Shown piece after piece: positions 17,814 through 21,221 of a stretch of DNA of 32,635 nt (position 1 is its first letter; the number at the start of each line of letters is the position of its first letter). The DNA is from Chryseobacterium sp. Lineage in GTDB: Bacteria > Bacteroidota > Bacteroidia > Flavobacteriales > Weeksellaceae. Location: positions 1-32,635 of the forward strand of contig JADMKO010000053.1 in the NCBI GenBank assembly GCA_015478785.1, in the 5' to 3' direction. The notes under the pieces are model-generated. The model worked only from the letters and a program-made list of their open reading frames with translations, had not been told where the DNA came from and did not search any database. Made by a program: the position numbers and the translations under genes.

Positions 17814-19583
17814 TTAAAATTTATTTTTGAGTTCGTCCAGTGGAAGTTCCGAAAAACATCTTTTACCATTGGGAAGGTATTCCGGGAAACCCAGTTCAGA
17901 AAATTCACGAATCAGCTGTTCTGCATCAATTTTGTAGATAAAATCAAACCGCGACTTGCTCTGCATCTTATTCCATTGGTTTACATAGAAATTCATAAAA
18001 TCATCCTCGGTCCGGTATTCCAGAATTTCAAATATATTTTCAAAAAATTTCATTACCTGAGTCTCTTTCAAGCCTTCCGGTACTGCATCAATCCTGAGAA
18101 CATTCTCATGAGCGATTTTGATATCAAAGCCCAAATCCGGCAGAAACTTTTTGATAGATCGGTATTTATTTTTCTCAATTTCATTCATATGATATTCCAG
18201 TGAGAAAAGGAGTGCGCTGGAGTTTTTACTCTTGTTTTTATTTTTATTTTGTTCTGAAACAATCAACCGGTGCATTCTTCCTAAATCCAGCATCAACGTT
18301 TTTTCACCTTTGTTGAAGAGCCAATATCCGTTCGGAAGCCTCATCAGGTCTTCATCAAAATCTTCATCTTCAAACAAATTAATTTTGGAAGGAGCAGCTG
18401 AAATATTCTGATGGTACATTTCGGAAAGATTCTGAATTTCCGCTTGTTTCACCGTTTTTTCTTCCAGAAAAGGATTGTAATTTCTATCAACCACCACTTC
18501 AGGCATTTTGAAACTTCCTCCATTATTCGCTTTTGAGGCTTTAAACATTTCATCCATCTGCGGATCCCGATCAAAATCCAGACTTGGTGCAATGTTATAA
18601 ATTCCCAGAGATTTTTTAATGGTAGAACGGAACAATGCAAAAATAAGATGTTCATCCTCAAACTTCACTTCTGTTTTCTGAGGATGAATATTGACGTCAA
18701 TCTTACCCGGATCCAACTCCAGATACAGGAAAAATGTAGGAATATATCCGGGTAGCAGCAAGCCTTCAAACGCTTCCTGAACCGCCTTATTCAGATACGG
18801 GCTCCGGAAAAATCTTCCATTCACAAAAAGAAATTGTTCGCCACGCACTTTTTTGGCGCCTTCCGGTTTTGCTACATAACCGTTCAGTTTTACCCAACCC
18901 AAATCTTCTTTAATCGGAATGAGAAGTGGCTGCAATTTCCTGCCGAAAATCTCTAAAATCCGTTGAATTTGTGTTCCTTTTCTCAACTTGAAAATAGGTT
19001 CATCATCATGGAATAAAGAAAACTCAACATTTTCATGAGCAAGCGCAACCCTTTGAAATTCATCAATAATATGTCGAAATTCTACATTGTTATTTTTCAA
19101 GAATTTTCGTCTTGCCGGAACATTATAAAAAAGATTTTTGACCTGAAAATTGGAACCTTCGGCCGTTTGCACAGGTTCCTGAAATTGCAATCCGCCACCT
19201 TCGATATAGATGTTGGTTCCAATGACAACTTCGCTTTTCCGCGTTTTCAGCTCTACCTGCGCTACGGCAGCAATGGAAGCCAAAGCTTCTCCACGAAAAC
19301 CTTTGGTTGCAATTTTGAAAATATCTTCTGTAGTTCGGATTTTAGAAGTAGCATGCCGTTCAAAAGCCATTCTGGCATCGGTTTCAGACATTCCGATTCC
19401 GTCATCCACTACTTGTATTAAATTTTTTCCTGCTTCCCGAACGATGAGTTCAATTTTTTGCGCCTTAGCATCTATGGCATTTTCCAACAGTTCTTTTACG
19501 ATAGATGCAGGCCGCTGCACCACTTCGCCGGCGGCGATCTGATTGGCGACATGATCCGGTAAAAGCTGAATAATATCTGACAT
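17814..19583 (-). CDS. mutL: DNA mismatch repair protein MutL
   Basis: N-terminal GHKL motifs IVKELLENAIDA, VDDGIGM, TKGFRGEALASI; FLFVNGRFFRSP and KIDVNIHPQKTEVKF. Confidence 0.96.
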   Translation of the reverse strand: MSDIIQLLPDHVANQIAAGEVVQRPASIVKELLENAIDAKAQKIELIVREAGKNLIQVVDDGIGMSETDARMAFERHATSKIRTTEDIFKIATKGFRGEALASIAAVAQVELKTRKSEVVIGTNIYIEGGGLQFQEPVQTAEGSNFQVKNLFYNVPARRKFLKNNNVEFRHIIDEFQRVALAHENVEFSLFHDDEPIFKLRKGTQIQRILEIFGRKLQPLLIPIKEDLGWVKLNGYVAKPEGAKKVRGEQFLFVNGRFFRSPYLNKAVQEAFEGLLLPGYIPTFFLYLELDPGKIDVNIHPQKTEVKFEDEHLIFALFRSTIKKSLGIYNIAPSLDFDRDPQMDEMFKASKANNGGSFKMPEVVVDRNYNPFLEEKTVKQAEIQNLSEMYHQNISAAPSKINLFEDEDFDEDLMRLPNGYWLFNKGEKTLMLDLGRMHRLIVSEQNKNKNKSKNSSALLFSLEYHMNEIEKNKYRSIKKFLPDLGFDIKIAHENVLRIDAVPEGLKETQVMKFFENIFEILEYRTEDDFMNFYVNQWNKMQSKSRFDFIYKIDAEQLIREFSELGFPEYLPNGKRCFSELPLDELKNKF

Positions 19584-19677: not shown

Positions 19678-19681
19678 CGAG

Positions 19682-19765
19682 TACCCCAGACGGGACTTGA
19701 ACCCGTACGTCCTTGCGGACACAGGATTTTAAGTCCTGCGTGTCTACCAATTCCACCACCAGGGC
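19682..19765 (-). tRNA. tRNA-Leu (anticodon TAA)
   Basis: On -: GCCCTGGTGGTGGAATTGGTAGACACGCAGGACTTAAAATCCTG...GGGTTCAAGTCCCGTCTGGGGTA. Cloverleaf with long variable arm; anticodon loop CTTAAAA. Confidence 0.96.
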
Positions 19766-19777
19766 AAAGTAGAACAG

Positions 19778-19850
<73 letters not shown>

Positions 19851-19886
19851 GAAAATTTCTGAATTCATATTCAGAAATATAAGATG

Positions 19887-19968
19887 TGCGGATGAAGGGA
19901 CTCGAACCCCCACGCCTCTCGGCACCAGATCCTAAGTCTGGCGTGGCTACCAATTACACCACATCCGC
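19887..19968 (-). tRNA. tRNA-Leu (anticodon TAG)
   Basis: On -: GCGGATGTGGTGTAATTGGTAGCCACGCCAGACTTAGGATCTGG...GGGTTCGAGTCCCTTCATCCGCA; anticodon loop CTTAGGA; long variable arm. Confidence 0.96.
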
Positions 19969-20130: not shown

Positions 20131-20514
20131 ATGGAATTACAAGGAACAGTAAAGAAAGTGTTTGAAACTCAAACTTTTGCAAGTGGATTTCAGAAAAGGG
20201 AAATGATTCTTCTTACCCAGGAGCAATATCCCCAGCCCATCAGCATCGAGTTTCTTTCTGAGAAAATAAATCTTCTTGATAATGTTTCAGAGGGCGAACA
20301 AGTGAAAGTAGGCATCAATATACGGGGAAGAGAATGGACTGCGCCAGACGGTGTAACCAAATATTTTAACAGCATTGCCGGTTGGAGACTGGAAAAAGTT
20401 CACGAAAATAGCAATGCAGAGCCTACGCAAGCCTCACCATCCTCCCAACCTTCCGCTTCATCCAGCAATGAAAACCCATTCTCCGAGGACGAGGATGATG
20501 ATTTACCATTTTAA
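20131..20514 (+). CDS. DUF3127-family protein with SSB-like acidic C-terminal tip
   Basis: MELQGTVKKVFETQTFASGFQKREMILLTQEQYPQPISIEFL...REWTAPDGVTKYFNSIAGWRLEK core, disordered Ser/Pro/Asn linker, terminal NPFSEDEDDDLPF. Confidence 0.88.
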   Translation: MELQGTVKKVFETQTFASGFQKREMILLTQEQYPQPISIEFLSEKINLLDNVSEGEQVKVGINIRGREWTAPDGVTKYFNSIAGWRLEKVHENSNAEPTQASPSSQPSASSSNENPFSEDEDDDLPF

Positions 20515-20534: not shown

Positions 20535-20573
20535 AAAATCCTGCTTTTTCAAAAAAAGTAGGATTTATTTTTC
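20535..20573 (+). terminator. Rho-independent terminator between the DUF3127 gene and aat
   Basis: AAATCCTGCTTTTT-caa-AAAAAGTAGGATTT hairpin followed by ATTTTT. Confidence 0.65.
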
Positions 20574-20576
20574 GCC

Positions 20577-21221
20577 ATGATTCAGCTTCAGAAGGATGAG
20601 ATTTCATTTCCCGATCCTGCTTTCTATCATCCTATGGGTGGATTGATTGCGCAGGGTGGCGACTTATCTGTGGATCGCGTTCTTTTGGCGTACCAACATG
20701 GCATTTTCCCTTGGTACAATCCGGGTGAAGAAATTCTGTGGTGGTGTCCCGATCCGAGATTTGTACTTTTCCCTGAGGAATTAAAAATATCCAAATCGAT
20801 GCGGAAAATAATGGCAAAAGATATTTTCCGGTTTACTGAAAACATGTGTTTTGCAGAGGTAATGCAACAATGTAAAAACACCAATCGAAAAGATCAAAAT
20901 GATACTTGGATTTCTGATGAGCTGATCGAAACTTTTATCCAGTTGCACAACAAAGGAATTGCGAAAAGCGTAGAGGTGTGGCAGAATGACGAATTGGTTG
21001 GTGGATTTTATGGGTTGCAAATCGGAGATGTTTTCTGTGGCGAAAGCATGTTTTCACACGTGAGCAATGCTTCCAAAGCGGGATTTATCTATTTTGTGTC
21101 AGAACATCAGCACGAATTGAGCCTGATTGACTGTCAGGTGTATACCGACCATTTGAAAAGCCTTGGCGCAAGAATGATTTCCAAAACTGATTATTTACAT
21201 TATCTCAAATCTACGCTATGA
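20577..21221 (+). CDS. aat: Leucyl/phenylalanyl-tRNA--protein transferase
   Basis: FPDPAFYHPMGGLIAQGGDLSVDRVLLAYQHGIFPWYNPGEEILWWCPDPRFVLFPEELKISKSMRK; GGFYGLQIGDVFCGESMFS. Confidence 0.95.
   Translation: MIQLQKDEISFPDPAFYHPMGGLIAQGGDLSVDRVLLAYQHGIFPWYNPGEEILWWCPDPRFVLFPEELKISKSMRKIMAKDIFRFTENMCFAEVMQQCKNTNRKDQNDTWISDELIETFIQLHNKGIAKSVEVWQNDELVGGFYGLQIGDVFCGESMFSHVSNASKAGFIYFVSEHQHELSLIDCQVYTDHLKSLGARMISKTDYLHYLKSTL

Follow-up and report, generated by a model that had tools for sequence, protein, structure and literature searches.

The window analysed in this study, a 32,635-nucleotide stretch of contig JADMKO010000053.1 from Chryseobacterium sp., contains on its forward strand an open reading frame (20131-20514, stop codon included) that starts with ATG, ends with TAA and encodes a 127-residue DUF3127 protein resembling single-stranded DNA-binding proteins (SSBs). 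All parts of this protein lie on the same strand: an OB-fold domain (residues 1-90; 20131-20400), delimited by AlphaFold2, Foldseek and conserved aromatic residues; a low-complexity linker rich in Ser, Pro, Gln and Asn (residues 91-119; 20401-20487), which has low pLDDT and differs between species; and an acidic tip of the SSB type, DEDDDLPF (residues 120-127; 20488-20511), recognised by its sequence and conservation. The C-terminus of the protein reads NPFSEDEDDDLPF. The gene and its division into domain, linker and tip, as described in the original prediction, were thus confirmed.

The downstream neighbour on the same strand is aat (20577-21221), which encodes leucyl/phenylalanyl-tRNA transferase. 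This arrangement is conserved within the order: the two genes adjoin in the same orientation in 78 of 80 named loci, as well as in 44 whole-genome loci. Because it is usually located beside aat within the order, the DUF3127 gene is a resident chromosomal gene and not a recent phage insertion. The terminator-like stem-loop between the two genes (20536-20566, forward strand) is a consensus match only, with one such structure found against 1.5 expected in shuffled sequences. The proximity to mutL mentioned in the original prediction does exist (17814-19583, reverse strand), but it is not conserved, and mutL was rejected as a meaningful neighbour in favour of aat. Three tRNA genes (Leu-TAA, Gly-GCC and Leu-TAG; 19681-19968, reverse strand) separate mutL and the DUF3127 gene.

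The proposed family assignment was borne out by Pfam, in which DUF3127 (PF11325) matched residues 2-88 with an E-value of 4.8e-27 (94.4 bits versus a cut-off of 27; model positions 1-85 of 85). The whole protein (residues 1-127) also matched the complete profile (1-117 of 117) of PHROG 4932, annotated as 'single strand DNA binding protein', with an E-value of 4e-37. The Pfam SSB model (PF00436) gave no match to the window protein even at E ≤ 10. In NCBIfam, the library by which NCBI names bacterial proteins, there was no confident match and the SSB models reached a best E-value of 0.16, while a sequence search of the PDB gave nothing significant (best E-value 0.62, to an SSB). A Pfam match to IF3_C at 0.03 was rejected as chance level. 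When profiles were compared, hhalign aligned DUF3127 with Bacteroidota SSBs at an E-value of 1.7e-7, in an alignment that takes in the tip; the DUF3127 HMM found canonical SSB at 5e-4, and the SSB profile found DUF3127 at 1e-5.

The protein was modelled as a single chain by AlphaFold2 from a 100-sequence alignment. The mean pLDDT was 85 overall, about 96 over residues 1-90 and 55-65 in the linker. Predicted strands (residues 2-10, 21-29, 36-42, 57-70 and 76-89) and one helix (residues 43-51) follow each other in the order beta-beta-beta-alpha-beta-beta. Among the best 50 Foldseek matches of this model in the PDB, 49 were bacterial SSBs and one was PriB; the top match was 3tqy (E-value 9e-7, probability 1.00). 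In a viral library, DUF3127 proteins and SSBs ranked best. Structure prediction and fold search, which had been suggested as a check, therefore returned an SSB-type OB barrel for the predicted model, with SSBs as its best matches. Aromatic residues at positions 20, 33, 69, 78 and 85 are retained in at least 99% of 100 homologues, and position 69 lies in a stretch for which phmmer gave an alignment with the RKW segment of enterobacterial SSB. It is possible that these aromatics stack on bases.

To assess the tip, we gathered DUF3127 proteins across the phylum and reduced them to 100 sequences under 80% identity. An ending of the type xPF was present in 95 of these 100 Bacteroidota-wide homologues, so that tip conservation, the other check suggested, was borne out as well; the remaining five were three proteins of phages and two additional copies whose genomes also hold another DUF3127. 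Averaged over the OB domain, the majority residue had a frequency of 0.52; the average for the linker was 0.20, and at the last five positions (DDLPF) the values ranged from 0.81 to 0.96. Hence, DUF3127 has the linker and the conserved acidic tip D-[DE]-[LIV]-P-F of canonical SSB, and the suspected copy of the SSB layout was recovered as an OB-type domain, a variable linker and the tip EDEDDDLPF. As a control for chance, we examined the other closed ORFs in the fetched loci that reach 120 aa or more, 2089 in total. Eleven of them end in [LIMV]PF, six with an acidic pair preceding, and at least four of these six are DnaB genes, which had been fetched for a matching tip. The tip of DUF3127 is far above chance. 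A conserved tip on a nearly unconserved linker is what would be expected of a docking peptide that functions at the end of a free tether. In E. coli, RecO, PriA, PriC and the chi subunit dock on the terminal acidic tip of SSB (PMC7145534), and by analogy DEDDDLPF would be the equivalent of this tip in DUF3127. Second DUF3127 copies without linker or tip were observed in two genomes (L268 in G318 and L274 in G311), an SsbB-like parallel inside the family.

Phage relatives within PHROG 4932, such as Nonlabens phage P12024L gp21 and a protein of Flavobacterium phage Fpv5, share 37-58% identity with the window DUF3127. Some RefSeq phage records name such relatives SSB, and other records of the same phages name them 'hypothetical protein'. 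The gene order in P12024L is Erf annealase, YqaJ exonuclease, DUF3127 and primase; in Bacteroidota phages, DUF3127 is also found near NinG or downstream of a gene for a RusA resolvase, with a few genes in between. The guess that DUF3127 has SSB activity is not new, since phage annotation already suggests it. In the open-access literature searched, we found no report of bacteria exchanging their housekeeping SSB for DUF3127, and a literature search found neither biochemical nor genetic data on DUF3127, transposon-essentiality data included.

The sole PF00436 gene of the window genome encodes 109 aa and stops right after the OB fold. Because this only SSB gene is tail-less, the occurrence of SSB and of DUF3127 was compared at both phylum and family level. 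In a sample of 297 genomes of the phylum, PF00436 was present in 294 and DUF3127 in 172, the latter being distributed in most sampled families of the class and order and many others of the phylum. Among near-complete Weeksellaceae genomes, the family being assigned on the basis of named relatives, DUF3127 was detected in 150 of 150 and PF00436 in 144 of 150. Such universality of DUF3127 is at most suggestive of essentiality.

By their sequences, the PF00436 genes of Weeksellaceae sort into four kinds: (a) canonical SSB (MNGT.NKVILIGNLGDDVK...DDLPF), with the tip complete in the majority of members of four genera, G343 and the fragmentary G376 being exceptions; (b) canonical SSB with a degenerate tip (endings include TSEHSEEI, IIQNDF and NSMDLDD), in genera g164 and g174, in G343 and in G304, which is 83% complete; (c) a paralogue of 107-111 aa without a tail (MSLRNKVTLIGHTGKEVE...), located near hisS in G210; and (d) sporadic, divergent tailed genes (MNI.GR.T..AE), probably from mobile elements. 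An estimated 114 of the 150 near-complete genomes, counted by genus from sequences or from frame lengths where shown, belong to genera showing only kinds (c) and (d), in which canonical SSB has apparently been lost. A single PF00436 match was present in 57 of these 114, belonging to kind (c) in nearly all cases seen; the exception is G298, where it is of kind (d). One PF00436 gene, tail-less, was found in Chryseobacterium indologenes AA5 (complete genome), C. rhizoplanae, C. lacus and Amniculibacterium aquaticum, and no PF00436 gene in Bergeyella sp. STEG19. In many Chryseobacterium-type genomes, the tail-less paralogue (e.g. L002 and, on the reverse strand, L277:2986-3318) is the one SSB of chromosomal type. 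In all 12 fetched genomes with degenerate canonical SSB ends (g164, g174 and G343), DUF3127 has kept DDLPF. These genomes look like intermediate stages of a hand-over to DUF3127.

In Bacteroidota, canonical ssb is near-universal and is located at mutY-ssb-gld, the outgroup order being mutY-ssb-gldD in G306 and G348 and mutY-ssb-gldE in G021. In the window genome and eight others (G297, G210, G394, G355, G319, G321, G318 and G282), mutY is followed by gldD and ssb is missing between them. Since these mutY-gldD junctions are contiguous, assembly gaps were rejected as the reason for the missing SSB. DUF3127 does not occupy the ancestral position, and the junction is empty in the window genome. 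In a MutY tree of 18 genomes, a tree limited by long branches and by its basis in a single gene, the 14 SSB-loss genomes formed one clade (100/100), which is consistent with a single loss of canonical ssb.

Absence of SSB was called on draft and complete assemblies, using a sensitive search with a profile built from 36 Bacteroidota SSBs and a threshold of E ≤ 10. For G299, G318, G334, G382 and G302, this search returned DUF3127 loci only; in G319, and in the PF00436-negative G315 of the same order outside Weeksellaceae, it returned no match at all. Of the seven PF00436-negative family genomes initially taken as SSB-free, G302 was dropped because it is 79% complete, and G321 because it encodes a divergent tailed SSB-like protein missed by Pfam, probably from a mobile element. 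Thus, five near-complete genomes (G299, G318, G319 and G382, each 99% complete, and G334, 93%; the window genome is 92.6% complete) keep DUF3127 and are missing every other SSB-like gene, including the tail-less one, which other members of the genus of G382 have. The divergent protein of G321 (L371, contig C9 near 66017) ends in DDEDDDLPF and is invisible to the Pfam SSB model. In a scan for genes ending in [DE][DE]-hydrophobic-PF, only DUF3127 was found in G334, G302, G315 and G355. Chance hits in very short ORFs and at TGG (Trp) codons were rejected, and the hits examined were judged by reading frame.

The same scan revealed an SSB-type acidic tip on DnaB (e.g. SSMNDFDDDDDFPF) in seven SSB-loss genomes, G299, G319, G305, G430, G387, G210 and G394 (loci L357, L359, L365, L368, L374, L461 and L462). 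The scan detected no DnaB tip in G324 and G348, which keep SSB, or in G349 and G373, whose SSB tip is eroded, and the DnaB tip is possibly linked to SSB loss. An unrelated 147-aa protein ending in KTEDDDLPF was observed in G305 (L364, contig C1 near 2512982), a possible further mimic of an SSB partner-docking tip.

We propose from this computed evidence, with a probability of roughly 0.75, that DUF3127 is a diverged SSB that took over the tailed-hub role of the housekeeping SSB and probably ssDNA coating as well. Its OB barrel would coat ssDNA through the conserved surface aromatics, probably as a multimer presenting several DDDLPF tips, and the flexible linker would offer the tip to the usual SSB partners, such as RecO, PriA, RecJ and RecQ. 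Canonical ssb would have been deleted from mutY-ssb-gldD in the ancestor shared by the Chryseobacterium-type Weeksellaceae, and DUF3127, already present phylum-wide, would have taken over. We also consider it probable that this entire clade has given up its housekeeping SSB and uses a DUF3127-family protein in its place to replicate the chromosome, and that intermediate stages have been preserved, which would run from a tailed canonical SSB through erosion of the tip and deletion of the gene to deletion of the tail-less paralogue as well. Where canonical SSB survives, DUF3127 would probably be an additional SSB; within the Chryseobacterium-type clade, it would serve as the principal tailed SSB, whether or not the tail-less paralogue assists it. 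The competition for SSB docking sites suggested in the original prediction does not fit, because the window genome appears to have no tailed canonical SSB. The protein looks like a replacement for SSB and not a competitor.

On the other hand, the tail-less PF00436 paralogue of most clade genomes could do the ssDNA coating, and mobile-element SSBs with tips are present in many of them. E. coli does not survive deletion of the SSB tip, but the B. subtilis ssb-delta-35 strain is viable though sick (PMC3000357), so loss of the tip alone is no proof of replacement; the stronger argument comes from the five genomes in which every other SSB-like gene is absent. These five also bear on a division of labour in which bulk coating of ssDNA would fall to the 109-aa paralogue, with DUF3127 as an accessory partner contributing the docking tip, both proteins perhaps mixing on the same ssDNA. 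One tail-less SSB does occur in nearly all Chryseobacterium-type genomes, including the window genome, but G299, G318, G319, G334 and G382 have DUF3127 and neither a tail-less nor any other SSB-like gene, G382 in this respect differing from the rest of its genus. We therefore regard such a division as unlikely.

Two further explanations appear less probable still. DUF3127 might be an SSB specialised for recombination or competence, as in phages, with replication in the clade served by an unrecognised SSB. The position of the P12024L gene in a recombination operon points in this direction, and, since canonical SSB and DUF3127 occur together in many of the phylum's families, a specialised role is likely to have been ancestral. 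As a description of the present clade, however, this is quite improbable: all 150 near-complete family genomes have DUF3127, the 36-SSB profile found no other SSB-like gene in the five genomes, and the plausible tip proteins there are DUF3127, DnaB and mobile-element SSBs only. It is very improbable that the OB fold of DUF3127 binds RNA or protein and that its tip titrates SSB partners. OB folds do bind many ligands, and DnaB and other proteins of the clade carry such tips, but the closest folds are specifically SSBs, homology to SSB is evident at profile level, and one conserved aromatic of DUF3127 aligns with the Trp-88 region of E. coli SSB.

In bacterial DNA metabolism, SSB counts as a universal and essential hub. 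If DUF3127 has indeed replaced it, a large and common group of genera has deleted SSB, and a function can be assigned to DUF3127. The group would then offer a natural experiment on swapping a hub protein without breaking its many partnerships, with the tip as the part kept by necessity, and SSB-targeted inhibitors or SSB-based annotation may misjudge Chryseobacterium-type bacteria.

Compared with canonical SSB (PF00436; E. coli, Flavobacterium), DUF3127 shares profile-level homology, the predicted OB fold, the disordered linker and an acidic tip ending in D-L-P-F. Canonical SSB works as a homotetramer with four OB folds and binds ssDNA with high affinity whatever its sequence. It differs in its shorter domain (about 90 aa versus about 105), in its locus upstream of aat instead of mutY-ssb-gld (e.g. 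in Flavobacterium) and in being unmatched by PF00436, and both proteins coexist in most of the phylum. The tail-less paralogues (SsbB-like, 102-111 aa), one of which was remarked on in Psychroflexus torquis but not considered further (PMC3991886), are also OB-fold SSBs of the same genomes, but they belong to PF00436, have neither linker nor tip and lie at another locus. The PHROG 4932 phage SSBs belong to the same DUF3127 family by full-length match; unlike the window gene, they are phage-encoded in recombination or replication operons, and some have lost the tip. Pantoea phage AAS23 gp25, reported as an SSB of a gammaproteobacterial phage, is comparable by its domain hits to both PRK09010 (SSB) and DUF3127 (PMC8004638). 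No other paper in the open-access literature searched mentions DUF3127. The nearest precedent for an exchange of SSB is its absence from an archaeal lineage, the Thermoproteales, many of which have no SSB homologues (PMC3984812). Like these, the Chryseobacterium-type clade is a lineage without the standard single-strand binding protein. The two differ in the substitute, which in the present clade would be a distant SSB homologue with the tip retained. In Thermoproteales, SSB is replaced by ThermoDBP, a protein of unrelated fold.
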